A stretch of DNA of 12,905 bases from the NCBI GenBank assembly GCA_022425465.1, contig JAKMFK010000115.1:1-12905 (forward strand). The letters are read 5' to 3'. Position numbers and translations under genes: made by a program. The stretch is from Bacteroidia bacterium (GTDB lineage Bacteria > Bacteroidota > Bacteroidia > NS11-12g > UBA9320). Under the pieces are notes generated by a model. The model worked only from the letters and a program-made list of their open reading frames with translations, searched no databases and was not told the DNA's origin. Each line of letters opens with the position of its first letter. Position 1 is the stretch's first letter. Shown here in pieces: positions 2,689-8,370 of this stretch.

Positions 2689-3336
2689 ATGAAGAAATAT
2701 TTTGCAGAATTTGCTGGCACCTTTTTACTTGTATTTTTGGGTGTATGGAGTATTGAGTATAGTAATCAAAATTTAGCTGATAATTTTCAAGCTTCTTTAT
2801 GCTTAATAACAATTATTTTTGGGATAGCCGTAACATCTGCTATCATTCTATTTGGGGAAATCTCGGGTGCACACATTAATCCTGCCGTTTCTATTGCGTT
2901 TTTTCTCAATAAATCCCTAAATGGTGTTGAGCTATTGTTTTATATTATTTTTCAATGCTTAGGGGCTATCTTGGGAGCTTATTTTTTTAACTTAATCTAT
3001 CCGAGTGAATATGTTGGCACTACATTACCTAATGTGAATACTACTTTCGCTTTTTCGTTTGAGATGGTTTTGAGTTTTATACTAATGATGGTCATTTTTT
3101 GGATAGCTAATCCGAATAATAAGCATACCAAACTTGCTCCTTATGTTATTGGACTACAAGTAGCCATCCATACGTATATTGTTGGGTTGGCAACATCCGT
3201 TAGTATGAATCCAGCAAGAAGTATTGGCCCTGCTATGGTTTCTGGTCATTGGGAACATTATTGGATATATTTAATTGCACCAATTGTTGGAATGGTTCTT
3301 TCATTTTTTGTTTGGAAAAATTTTAAAAAGATATGA
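2689..3336 (+). CDS. Aquaporin-family (MIP) channel, probable arsenite/neutral solute channel
   Basis: A 215-residue membrane channel, close to the usual length of bacterial aquaporins, with about six membrane helices. Both pore half-helix motifs are intact: GAHINPAVS (Asn64-Pro65-Ala66) and SMNPARS (Asn174-Pro175-Ala176, with filter Arg177). My hand alignment to E. coli AqpZ puts Phe44 at the Phe43 position, but Thr162 at the filter-His174 position (a His lies one residue earlier, at 161) and Val171 at the Thr183 position. This would make a filter less water-selective than AqpZ. The gene overlaps arsC by 4 bp (ATGA), implying translational coupling. In Sinorhizobium a related arrangement (AqpS with ArsC) removes arsenite through the channel after arsenate is reduced. 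A similar role is inferred here; a plain water or glycerol channel is the alternative. No arsR regulator or ArsB/Acr3 pump is in the window. Confidence 0.92.
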   Translation: MKKYFAEFAGTFLLVFLGVWSIEYSNQNLADNFQASLCLITIIFGIAVTSAIILFGEISGAHINPAVSIAFFLNKSLNGVELLFYIIFQCLGAILGAYFFNLIYPSEYVGTTLPNVNTTFAFSFEMVLSFILMMVIFWIANPNNKHTKLAPYVIGLQVAIHTYIVGLATSVSMNPARSIGPAMVSGHWEHYWIYLIAPIVGMVLSFFVWKNFKKI

Positions 3337-3749
3337 AAAAGAAAAATATACTCGTATTATGTACTGGCAATAGCTGCAGAAGTCAAATGGCTGAAGCATA
3401 TCTTAAACTCTATCATGGTAAAGAATGTAATATTTATAGTGCTGGGGTAGAAAAGCATGGTATAAACCCTTTTGCAATTGGAATTTTAATGGAAGACTCC
3501 CTAGATATATCTAATCACTACTCAAAAACAATAGAAGAATTGGATGACATTTCATTTGATTTACTTATAACAGTTTGTGACCATGCTAATGAAGTTTGTC
3601 CAGTATTACCAGGCAATCAAAGCAAAATTCATCACAACTTTAAAGACCCAAGTAAAATGAATGGCAGTTCTAGTGAAATTATAAAGGCATTCCGAGAAAC
3701 TAGAGATGAAATAAAAGAGTTCTGTCGAAACATCAACATATTAAGTTAA
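3333..3749 (+). CDS. arsC: Arsenate reductase, thioredoxin-coupled LMW-phosphatase type
   Basis: Reduces arsenate to arsenite in the cytosol using a cascade of cysteines regenerated by thioredoxin. The P-loop CTGNSCR gives the CX5R signature, Cys10 to Arg16. The numbering of every key residue matches Staphylococcus pI258 ArsC: Cys10 (nucleophile), Cys15, the redox pair Cys82 and Cys89 in VCDHANEVCP, and Asp105 in KDPSK (general acid). This separates it from ordinary low-molecular-weight tyrosine phosphatases, which lack Cys82/Cys89. Its 138 residues compare with about 131 in the reference protein. The start overlaps the aquaporin stop by 4 bp, so the two are co-translated. The expected product, arsenite, would need an exit route, which the upstream channel could provide. 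Function is well supported by motifs. Confidence 0.93.
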   Translation: MKKKNILVLCTGNSCRSQMAEAYLKLYHGKECNIYSAGVEKHGINPFAIGILMEDSLDISNHYSKTIEELDDISFDLLITVCDHANEVCPVLPGNQSKIHHNFKDPSKMNGSSSEIIKAFRETRDEIKEFCRNINILS

Positions 3750-4897: not shown

Positions 4898-7048
4898 TTA
4901 GTTTAAATACTGACCACTAGCTGCCTCAGAGACATTAATAATATGATCCCCAACTCGTTCAATGGATGAAAATATATTACTGTAGATTAAACCACTTTGA
5001 GCATTATAGTCTCCCTTTTCCATACTCTTAAGGTGTTTCTTTCGTAAATCATTTCTCAACTCATTAATAGCAACTTCGAGAGATACCGATTTATCAAGGT
5101 TTATCTCACTGTAATTACCACTTAAATTACTAATCATTAATTCATAAGCTTCTAAAACTTTATTGAAAAGCTCGTTTAAGTTATCTCGCTGATTTTGATC
5201 GAACCATAGTTTAGCATCAGTCTTTTTGTCGACTGTTTTAGAAATTTGCATATAAATATCACCTATTCGCTCCAAATCACTGGTAATACTCAACATAGAT
5301 CTTAGGCGTAATGAAGATTTCTCAGTTAATTTAGAAGTAGAAACTTTTCCTAGATAGTTCGCTATTTCAGATTCTAGACTATCCGTTATTTCCTCATATT
5401 TAATTATCTTCTTCATTAATTTACCTCTCTTCTTAACATCCAATTCATTAATTAACTCTTGTGATTTTTTATGCATTTTGAATGTTAATTCAGCAAACTT
5501 CACAACTTCTTTTTTAGCTTCAAGAATAGATAATTCAGGGGTTTGTGTTATTCCACTCGATATAAACTCAAGCTTAAAAATTTCATCGTCTTCTCCCTTT
5601 GACTTAACGGTTGACTCAGCAATTTTCACTAATTGAGGTACAAACCAAATCAATAATAAAACATTGGTTAGATTAAAGATGGTATGGAAAGCTGATAGGC
5701 CAATTGTAGCCCCCTCTCCGCTTATTGTTACACCTAATTCATCAACAAATGGAGCCATTCCTAAAATACTAGTTGTAAACCACGTAACAATATTTAAGAA
5801 AACAGGCATTAAGAATATCATCCAAGTTACACCAACAATGTTGAACATGGAATGAATACGTGCAGACCGTTTCGCATGAACATTACCTACCAAAGATGCA
5901 AGTTCAGCAGTAATTGTTGTTCCAATATTCTCACCTAGTATCATCGCTGCACCAACTTCAAAAGGAATGATTCCTTTTAAAACCATTGTGAGTGTTAATG
6001 CCATTGCTGCACTTGAAGATTGAACAACTATTGTAACTAGTGTACCTAATAGAACAAATGCAATTCTACCTAAAAATGGAGAATCACTGAATTGAGTAAA
6101 AAATTGGACTATACCAGAGTTAGCATCTAAATCAGGAACTGCATCTTTTAAGAAACCAAGCCCCATAAACAATATAGCAAAACCAATAATTGCATTTGCC
6201 CATCCTTTAACCTTGTTCTTAGCCATAAACATTAAAGGTGCACCAAAAGCAATAAATATCAATGAGTAACTAGATAAGCTGATTTTGAAACCAAATAATG
6301 AAACTAACCAACCAGTAATTGTTGTACCAATGTTAGCACCCATCATCACTCCAGATGATTCTAATAGGGTTAGAAGACCTGCATTAACAAAACTTACAGT
6401 CATCACTGTAGTTGCACTAGACGACTGCACAAGAGCAGTAACTAAAAATCCACTAAGCACTCCTAAATATCGATTTCTAGTCATGCTACTAAGAATTTTG
6501 CGAAGACCACCAGCTGCAGATTGCTGAAGCCCCTCACTCATAAGCTTCATTCCAAATATAAATAATCCTAAAGAGCCTAATAACACGAGAAATTTATATA
6601 ACCCCCAATCACGCAGGGTCTTGTATTTCCCTTTACCAGACCACACTAAATTGTCGCTTTCAGGAATTCCATTTTTAAGTATATTATTGATGTCACTTCC
6701 GTCTTTTAGACACCCAATCTGCCATACATACTTTTCACCAGAACTCATCCCTTCTAACTTGAATGAAGTACTTTTAGCATCAATTACAGGAGAATATTTC
6801 CATGGTTTACCTTTTTCAACTTTCTTTTGATACTTTATGATAATATTTTCGACATTGTTTATTTGATCGTAATCAATCAACCAGGAAAATTTTGCACCGG
6901 ATATGATTCCTTTTGCATTAATATTTTTGAAGATATCTCCAGACAAATTACTATTTGTTGTTGAATCAGAGGCAAAGCTAGTATAGACTATAATGGTAAA
7001 TAGAGTAACTAAGACCAATTTTAAACCAATTTTAATTTTGTTAAACAT
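4898..7048 (-). CDS. Na+/phosphate cotransporter (NptA/PNaS family) with PhoU-like tail and extra periplasmic N-terminal domain
   Basis: Inner-membrane sodium-driven phosphate importer, 716 residues from the ATG at 7048. Order: signal peptide or signal anchor 1-26 (LKLVLVTLFTIIVYTSFA); an extracytoplasmic domain of about 120 residues (27-150), rich in beta strands and fibronectin-III-like by eye (KPWKYSP, YVWQIG); then the membrane core. The core has the duplicated Na/Pi signature, VQSSSATT (QSSS at 208-211) and VQSSSAAM (QSSS at 343-346), each followed by a GANIGTTIT or GENIGTTIT motif. Residues about 506-711 form a cytoplasmic helical PhoU-like domain with the two metal-binding type motifs ERIGD (593-597) and ERVGD (697-701). 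The frame is open to a TTG at 7090, but that codon lies in the promoter and would put 14 residues before the signal peptide, so ATG 7048 is chosen. The phosphate porin gene lies 87 bp upstream on the same strand. A Pho-box-like repeat precedes this gene. Confidence 0.92.
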   Translation of the reverse strand: MFNKIKIGLKLVLVTLFTIIVYTSFASDSTTNSNLSGDIFKNINAKGIISGAKFSWLIDYDQINNVENIIIKYQKKVEKGKPWKYSPVIDAKSTSFKLEGMSSGEKYVWQIGCLKDGSDINNILKNGIPESDNLVWSGKGKYKTLRDWGLYKFLVLLGSLGLFIFGMKLMSEGLQQSAAGGLRKILSSMTRNRYLGVLSGFLVTALVQSSSATTVMTVSFVNAGLLTLLESSGVMMGANIGTTITGWLVSLFGFKISLSSYSLIFIAFGAPLMFMAKNKVKGWANAIIGFAILFMGLGFLKDAVPDLDANSGIVQFFTQFSDSPFLGRIAFVLLGTLVTIVVQSSSAAMALTLTMVLKGIIPFEVGAAMILGENIGTTITAELASLVGNVHAKRSARIHSMFNIVGVTWMIFLMPVFLNIVTWFTTSILGMAPFVDELGVTISGEGATIGLSAFHTIFNLTNVLLLIWFVPQLVKIAESTVKSKGEDDEIFKLEFISSGITQTPELSILEAKKEVVKFAELTFKMHKKSQELINELDVKKRGKLMKKIIKYEEITDSLESEIANYLGKVSTSKLTEKSSLRLRSMLSITSDLERIGDIYMQISKTVDKKTDAKLWFDQNQRDNLNELFNKVLEAYELMISNLSGNYSEINLDKSVSLEVAINELRNDLRKKHLKSMEKGDYNAQSGLIYSNIFSSIERVGDHIINVSEAASGQYLN

Positions 7049-7087: not shown

Positions 7088-7132
7088 CAAAGGAGATGCT
7101 AGAATGTTATCTTAACGTTAATTCATTGTTAA
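7088..7132 (-). promoter_or_regulatory. Pho-box-like triple direct repeat and TTTG promoter core upstream of the Na+/phosphate transporter
   Basis: On the minus strand three hexamers lie exactly 11 bp apart: TTAACA (7132-7127), TTAACG (7121-7116) and ATAACA (7110-7105). A TTTG (7091-7088), possible core of a Bacteroidota -7 element, begins 13 nt after the last hexamer. The 11-bp period is that of binding sites for PhoB/OmpR-type response regulators, and the hexamer is close to the Bacillus PhoP half-site TTAACA. The repeats lie entirely within the gap between the porin stop and this gene, so the transporter probably has its own promoter. The upstream half of the -7 consensus (TA) is absent (CTCC), which would fit an activator-dependent promoter. 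Confidence 0.6.
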
Positions 7133-7135
7133 TTT

Positions 7136-8311
7136 TTAAATTCCAAACTCTACTTGAAAACGTATTCTGTAGTTTGAATCGGCTACATTTTCCTTGGTTA
7201 TATAGGAAATATCTGACTGAACCTTAAGTTTATGACCTACTATGTATTTAGACAGACCCAACGTGTATTCAGTTGTATTTAACTCAGCTCCCAAACCTTT
7301 TGCTAAATCAACTGAAGTATATCTTGCAGCAACCTCATAATTATTATCAAATAAATAACCAATCTGACCAACATATCCAGATCCTGAAGTAAATCCACTG
7401 ATATCTTTAGATAATGTTTTATTAGCATACTCTCCCATTAAACTCCATCCATTGTATTTATATATAGCATCAATAAATAGCGTTGAAATATCATTATATT
7501 GTGAGTTAAAGTTACCTAAAGTATCTTCTAGCTGTACAAAATTTCCAAGTTGCCCTCCACTTCTATTGGTGTTTTCATTATAGCATGATGTAATACCAAT
7601 TGCTAATTTAGGTTTAGTCTCTCTTTTTAAATCTGCACTAAAGTAATCTCCTTTTGATGTAAAACTTCCAAAAGGGTAAAATTCAAATCTACCGGTATAT
7701 GATAACCCATTTTCTTCGTTAGATGCAGTAATATTTCTTCCTTCTCCAGTTGTAATTGCAGCTGCAAGTGTTAATGGCATACTTGCTAACTTTTGTTTAA
7801 ATCGATATTGCACTCCAAAATCTCGATCAATATTAAACTTACTGTTCACATTACTTCTATCTACAAACTGAAGTGCCATAGAAGATATAACCCTTTCTCT
7901 ATTCCCTGGCAGTTTAGTTTGTCCAAACCAGATTTGATGCTTTTTGTTTATGTTATATTTCATGACAGCATCCAAAACAATTTTTGATCCATCACTTACA
8001 CGACTTGCATCTTTAGTTATTCCTTGATCTCGATTACTTAAGGCTAGCTCCAACTTATATTCAAACTTTGGACTATATATAAATCCTTTAGATTTGAGAC
8101 GCATTCGCCTAACCATTGCTTTCATTTCTTGGTTATTCCCAGACTCATCACTTTCAAATGATGCTAAACTTTGTACTCGAAAACTAAGTTTCATTTTAAC
8201 TCTGTCATCATTAGATTTAAATGATAGACCCTTATCAACCGTTTCATAATTAAATTGAGCTTTCACGTTTAATGTAATAACCAATAAGATTATTGATGAT
8301 AAATATTTCAT
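7136..8311 (-). CDS. Outer-membrane porin of the OprO/OprP (phosphate-selective) type
   Basis: Outer-membrane beta-barrel of 391 residues, within the range of OprP-like porins. Residues 1-18 are a signal peptide (MKYLSSIILLVITLNVKA, cut before QF). The N-terminal part shows the family pattern: LSFRVQSLASFES, then VRRMRLKSKGFIYSPKFEYKLELALSNRD (first 20 residues from about 67), then HQIWFGQTKLPGNRERVIS. Alternating polar and hydrophobic strands follow to the end (RIRFQVEFGI). The product would let phosphate through the outer membrane to the Na+/phosphate transporter encoded next on the same strand, an arrangement that supports the substrate. True phosphate selectivity depends on an arginine/lysine ladder that I cannot place by eye. 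A general or pyrophosphate/polyphosphate-preferring porin is possible. A Pho-box-like repeat lies directly upstream. Confidence 0.87.
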   Translation of the reverse strand: MKYLSSIILLVITLNVKAQFNYETVDKGLSFKSNDDRVKMKLSFRVQSLASFESDESGNNQEMKAMVRRMRLKSKGFIYSPKFEYKLELALSNRDQGITKDASRVSDGSKIVLDAVMKYNINKKHQIWFGQTKLPGNRERVISSMALQFVDRSNVNSKFNIDRDFGVQYRFKQKLASMPLTLAAAITTGEGRNITASNEENGLSYTGRFEFYPFGSFTSKGDYFSADLKRETKPKLAIGITSCYNENTNRSGGQLGNFVQLEDTLGNFNSQYNDISTLFIDAIYKYNGWSLMGEYANKTLSKDISGFTSGSGYVGQIGYLFDNNYEVAARYTSVDLAKGLGAELNTTEYTLGLSKYIVGHKLKVQSDISYITKENVADSNYRIRFQVEFGI

Positions 8312-8315
8312 ATTG

Positions 8316-8370
8316 CAAATATTTCGATGCGTTTGTTATCAAATAGTTAAGCAAATGTTAATATTGTTAA
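8316..8370 (-). promoter_or_regulatory. Pho-box-like repeats and promoter upstream of the phosphate porin
   Basis: On the minus strand the hexamers TTAACA (8361-8356), TTAACT (8350-8345) and ATAACA (8339-8334) are exactly 11 bp apart, with a further TTAACA at 8370-8365 nine bp upstream. A promoter core AATATTTG (8323-8316) starts 10 nt after the last hexamer; its TTTG (8319-8316) starts 14 nt after it. A second TTTG at 8343-8340 lies 16 nt before that core, a possible -33 element. The sequence TTTGC is followed by three bases and then the ATG at 8311. Order, period and spacing copy the site upstream of the Na+/phosphate transporter. The stretch 8357-8371 also forms an imperfect dyad (GTTAA, 5 nt, TTAAC). 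Confidence 0.62.

Follow-up and report, generated by a model that had tools for sequence, protein, structure and literature searches.

Candidate Pho boxes built from three 11-bp repeats upstream of two phosphate-uptake genes in a Bacteroidia bacterium

Does the triple repeat that precedes both phosphate-uptake genes of this locus serve as the phosphate-starvation operator of its lineage? The window (the whole stretch of 12,905 nucleotides analyzed here) carries two open reading frames of interest on the minus strand, namely a 391-aa porin gene of the Porin_O_P family (7136..8311; PF07396, E 1.3e-14) and a Na+/phosphate (Na/Pi) symporter gene with a C-terminal PhoU domain (4898..7048; PF02690, E 1.8e-55; PF01895, E 4.6e-17). 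Bacteroidota play a major part in the degradation of algal and plant material, and what they can do is limited by the supply of phosphate. A usable Pho box would make the phosphate regulon predictable in any sequenced member of the phylum, uncultured metagenome-derived ones such as the present bacterium included. Judging from sequence comparison, we consider it highly probable that both arrays are Pho boxes, i.e., operators of the lineage's PhoB-type response regulator, the candidate gene for which is found on another contig (C251) of the same assembly. A Pho box on the two promoters is very likely, and PhoB probably activates both. That PHO boxes are 11-nt direct repeats is already established (PMC4415409, accessible text); what is added here is detail on the promoter geometry.

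The two arrays and their promoters

The array of the porin gene (8334..8361, minus strand) consists of TTAACA (8361-8356), TTAACT (8350-8345), and ATAACA (8339-8334), and that of the symporter gene (7105..7132, minus strand) of TTAACA (7132-7127), TTAACG (7121-7116), and ATAACA (7110-7105). Both are tandem direct repeats with an exact 11-nt period and the same order of hexamers, and a second reading of the minus strand returned every letter and coordinate of the first-pass annotation. Its description of the third half-site as degenerate does not hold, as this hexamer is ATAACA in both arrays and shows no visibly greater degeneracy than the other two. An in-register fourth half-site was found at neither array. 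An extra TTAACA (8365..8370, minus strand) precedes the porin array by 9 bp, outside the 11-bp register, and may or may not belong to it. In the relative G003, the porin array is identical (L006) and the symporter array has one mismatch (L019). The annotation had also argued from unrelated spacers that the pair is not a simple duplication, and rightly so: we reject a copied promoter piece on the differing spacers and flanks and on the presence of the same array before unrelated genes elsewhere.

As claimed earlier, a TTTG core starts 14 nt past the third hexamer of the porin array (at 8319; 8316..8319, minus strand) and 13 nt past that of the symporter array (at 7091; 7088..7091, minus strand). 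From general knowledge plus inference, we take both cores to be candidate -7 elements. The sequence CTCCTTTGAA at the symporter core is common to the window and G003 (L006). For the symporter, a start at ATG 7048 is more plausible than the TTG at 7090 given in the table of open reading frames, and this leaves 56 nt between the end of the array and the start codon. Since the array begins just behind the porin gene (3 nt past its stop codon), separate transcription of both genes is possible. The porin array is only 22 nt away from the porin ATG (8334-8311), and the TTTG is found 4 nt before this ATG, which may leave the porin mRNA with almost no leader, provided that TTTG is indeed the -7 element. 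Elsewhere in the window, near the phosphate-uptake genes, a gene for a MIP-family channel is directly followed by one of the low-molecular-weight phosphatase family (2689-3749), a pair reminiscent of an aquaporin plus an arsenate reductase.

In the own assembly, which comprises 1.78 Mb in 309 contigs and is 88% complete, the exact pattern TTAACA-N5-TTAAC-N6-ATAACA occurs only at the two window sites, and a first-order model based on the composition of the window predicts about 0.003 occurrences genome-wide; this expectation is post hoc because the pattern was derived from these very sites, and the case therefore rests on comparisons across genomes. Scanning only the window, and loosely (up to 2 mismatches), gives weak evidence, as the two matches obtained (both with zero mismatches) compare with 0.93 expected and 45 of 200 shuffles also reach two.

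Placement of the arrays across Bacteroidia

We surveyed 395 Bacteroidia genomes with the pattern and with a period-12 version as control, allowing at most one mismatch each. Matches were found in 74 genomes at period 11 and in 57 at period 12, leaving 124 (9 exact) and 70 (1 exact) places, respectively, after removal of duplicates. A random spread, which would have spoken against the first-pass annotation, was not seen: 3 of the 124 period-11 places are inside open reading frames versus 47 of the 70 controls, and 93 of 124 versus 15 of 70 are promoter-placed. The enrichment before phosphate genes that it led us to look for is present as well, with a porin, Na/Pi, PhoB, PiT, PhoU-like, PstC, or PlcP gene at most 2 kb downstream in 26/124 versus 0/70 cases (at one control place, a PlcP-like gene is found on the divergent side). 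The query proteins for this search partly came from array matches, hence the count was repeated without the loci that supplied them, giving 15/113 versus 0/70; the seed-free set gave 18/121. Adding the genomes of 97 relatives brings the number to 32 of 135 places in 10 families, a set that includes relatives' matches unmatched by a period-12 control, so that only the 395 genomes compare like for like. Many matches stem from related genomes and are hence not independent.

The downstream proteins of the 93 promoter-placed arrays point in the same direction. Their Pfam families comprise Porin_O_P (9), BPD_transp_1 (PstC; 6), PhoU_div (4), response regulator (3), Metallophos (3), PHO4 (1), Na_Pi (1), and TonB plug (10), none of which was found among the 15 period-12 control proteins. 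In one genus (g64), arrays are also positioned a few nucleotides from the start of PHA_synth_III_E-type genes (L112, L113, L171). Raw numbers, on the other hand, are uninformative. The scan of the relatives returned 17 places versus 19 for the reversed pattern, so the number of arrays is not raised, and the own genome scanned with 3 mismatches gave 13 versus 15. As these counts are about equal, we use placement and not the numbers as evidence. Furthermore, for 98 of the 124 period-11 places, the 2 kb downstream contain no recognized phosphate gene. The proposal of a phosphate-starvation operator thus stands as far as placement, period, and association with phosphate genes are concerned, but TTAACA triple repeats are not exclusive to such genes.

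The reverse approach starts from the genes. Here, 250 bp upstream were scored at periods 8-14, and an array passed at a score of at least 15 out of 18. At period 11, arrays were found before 9/17 porin genes (one of 18 loci was dropped for having <100 bp upstream), 10/30 phoB genes, and 4/30 pstC genes, and at periods 8, 9, 10, 12, 13, and 14 before none of these; the other 8/17, 20/30, and 26/30 promoters remain below the cut-off. Among the other upstream regions of the same loci, 12/164 pass at period 11 and none at any other period. By our reading, seven of them precede PstS-like proteins (one confirmed by Pfam) and four precede Na/Pi proteins, the twelfth being L344. We also scanned 20 distant pst loci over 3.1 kb upstream (2.3 kb in one case) on the same strand. 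An array passes in seven at period 11, versus three at period 12, one each at periods 10 and 13, and none at 8, 9, and 14. Five of the seven are located before PBP_like_2 (PstS-type) genes, one before a Porin_O_P gene, and one before a gene whose protein is without Pfam match. With the gene-first loci included, our count of families with an array before phosphate genes rises from 10 to 16.

The Na/Pi promoter itself gives a similar picture, with 12 of 28 loci (L020-L047) passing at period 11, one at period 10, and none at period 12. Conservation in orthologous promoters, whose absence would have spoken against the first-pass annotation, is present, if partial. Both arrays are retained in a 92%-identical relative (L020) and the Na/Pi array in two others (L022, L023), but an 87%-identical relative (L021) has no array of score 15.

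The TTTG register and a second group of arrays

Behind the 124 non-overlapping arrays outside open reading frames (8 shifted overlapping matches were dropped beforehand), 57 of 110 TTTG cores fall on 8 of 60 positions, namely 13, 14, 24, 25, 35, 36, 46, and 47 nt after the array. When the flanks were shuffled 1000 times by mononucleotides, a mean of 5.9 and at most 15 cores did so; these positions and the grouping of arrays in two were chosen after inspecting the data. The distance to TTTG thus mostly runs in 11-bp steps (13, 24, 35, and 46 nt), and the same steps are kept by TAnnTTTG, which serves as -7 element in Bacteroidota promoters. Given the promoter spacing we assume, an array with its TTTG at 24 would have its third half-site on top of the -33 element, much as the E. 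coli PHO box covers -35. Such stepped spacing offers a direct and cheap test of regulator action at the phylum's unusual -33/-7 promoters.

Phosphate genes are not evenly distributed over the registers. One is near in 21/37 arrays with TTTG at 13/24/35/46, in 3/18 at 14/25/36/47, and in 10/69 without an in-register TTTG. The split is not clean because two of the three phosphate-linked arrays in the shifted group are the window's porin array and its ortholog in G003. Positions 24 and 35 hold the TTTG of 15 phosphate-linked and 9 other arrays, and positions 25 and 36 that of one phosphate-linked and 16 other arrays (Fisher p 0.0003, post hoc). Of the remaining 15 arrays in the shifted group, 12 contain AAGTC in or beside the array by our reading, often together with a fourth half-site. 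Where called, their downstream genes encode a small lipoprotein, a Cys-rich protein, or another non-phosphate protein. L103 is an exception in that it has AAGTC and yet the TTTG register of the first group. The TTAACAAGTC-type arrays (L100, L101, L102, L103, L110, L158, L163, L166, L190, L191, L205, L207, and L233) precede small lipoprotein, Cys-rich, and cytochrome-like genes, with one weak match to Dihaem cytochrome c.

From these sequence features, the AAGTC arrays look like a second regulon under an OmpR-family regulator. This raises the question of how near-identical operators stay separate. Tentatively, and with somewhat more doubt than belief, we propose a Bacteroidota-wide design in which OmpR-family regulators act on TTAACA arrays at a distance from the -7 TTTG that is quantized in 11-bp steps (about 13, 24, 35, and 46). 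At least two regulons with nearly the same half-site would then be told apart by the letters of the spacers, the length of the array, and a register shifted by 1 bp, the Pho arrays being mostly at 24/35 and the AAGTC group mostly at 25/36.

The existence of this second group also suggests that the window arrays could be operators of another OmpR-family regulator with similar TTAACA repeats rather than of PhoB. This is the strongest of the competing explanations, albeit an unlikely one. It is favored by the AAGTC-spacer group preceding non-phosphate genes with a TTTG mostly 1 bp further away, by the TTTG at 14 of the window's porin array, which is the register of that group, and by the scores of the own PhoB, which are under the curated cut-offs. 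Against these points, the window arrays are without AAGTC spacers and both of their targets are phosphate-uptake genes, the relatives' arrays precede phoB, pstS/pstC, and PiT genes, and the own genome holds a single full-length match to the PhoB model.

The regulator and its predicted action

That match, the only full-length gene for a PhoB-like (OmpR-type) regulator found in the own genome, is located on contig C251 and not on the window contig. Its best two NCBIfam matches are PhoB models, both below the cut-off (227.4 of 296.2 and 218.1 of 270), and its partner kinase, truncated by the contig end, is far below the cut-offs of the PhoR models. A related array with 2 mismatches is found 38 nt before the ATG of this phoB. 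In the set of relatives, 89 of 97 genomes contain a PhoB-like regulator. Aligned with the E. coli protein, the own recognition helix reads RTIDVHIRKIREK versus RTVDVHIRRLRKA, with Lys replacing Arg201, a residue that contacts a base in E. coli PhoB. The helix RTIDVHIRKIREK is unchanged in 25/25 PhoB loci that could be read by text pattern (out of 30 loci, 5 being missed).

Under the Pho-box reading, the partner kinase would phosphorylate PhoB when phosphate is scarce. Bound head to tail to the tandem half-sites, on a single face of the helix and overlapping or adjoining the -33 element, PhoB would then bring RNA polymerase to the -7 core. In this way, the porin of the outer membrane and the Na/Pi symporter of the inner membrane would switch on together, each from its own promoter. 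A PstC gene gave no match in the own (incomplete) genome with one query at E 1e-40; the porin and Na/Pi pair may therefore be the main inducible phosphate route of this genome.

Binding of PhoB does not necessarily imply activation, and PhoB could mainly repress or tune the two promoters. We regard this as even less likely than a different regulator. The phoB promoter arrays of the genus contain TAACTTTG, which by our reading resembles a -7 element, so PhoB binding could block that start, and both window arrays end within 14 nt of the TTTG. However, the 13/24/35/46 steps keep the array upstream of the TTTG and on the same face of the helix, as would be expected for an activator. In Bacteroides fragilis, which belongs to the same phylum, PhoB binds the pstC promoter in a gel shift, and low-phosphate expression of pstC requires PhoB (PMC3547664, accessible text). 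By far the least credible option is that the arrays arose by chance, the genome being AT-rich, or as a copied piece of promoter, and despite the loose window scan and match numbers equal to those of the reversed pattern we reject it on the period control (placement and phosphate-gene association at period 11 versus 12) and on the differences between the two sites.

How does the activator reading fit with known systems? The B. subtilis PhoP box is made up of TT(A/T/C)ACA hexamers, usually in four or more repeats. The window hexamer fits this consensus and the spacers are likewise 5 bp long, whereas only three repeats are present here and the regulator is closest to PhoB models. Class-wide, a fourth half-site is found at -11 in 16/132 and at +33 in 19/131 places. 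The E. coli PHO box has two units and a -10 box, as opposed to three units and TTTG here. It too is a tandem array of direct repeats, 11 nt each, that is found in the promoters of phosphate genes, but its half-site is CTGTCAT instead of TTAACA (PMC4415409). In Flavobacterium johnsoniae, the phosphate regulon is strong and includes PlcP and a phoBR cluster (PMC8115612, in part). For marine bacteria, Pho boxes have been predicted at plcP gene clusters (PMC4796936), and PlcP-like genes also follow arrays in our survey (L017, L217). We found no binding consensus for B. fragilis PhoB in the accessible text of PMC3547664, nor one for Bacteroidota in that of PMC4796936. Our literature search, judged mostly by titles and the openings of abstracts and with subscription papers mostly outside its scope, recognized no Bacteroidota Pho box consensus.

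Critically speaking, several points weigh against the Pho-box reading: counts that do not exceed the reversed pattern, the many promoters below the cut-off, L021 without an array, and a regulator and kinase below their model cut-offs. In addition, OprP is not induced in F. johnsoniae (PMC8115612), and B. fragilis has, besides a porin O gene under PhoB control, a second one that responds in the opposite direction (PMC3547664), as far as the accessible parts of both papers go.

Two further observations concern the surroundings of such arrays. In close relatives, the palindrome-like sequences TACAATTATTGTA and TACAATCATTGTA are found between the array and the phoB ATG (L277, L281). Besides the window pair and phoB, a single place in the own genome looked plausible to us, namely a weaker array with 3 mismatches (L355; G000:C20:4995-5022) 39 nt before the gene of a TonB-dependent receptor (Plug domain), which is a possible further member of the regulon.
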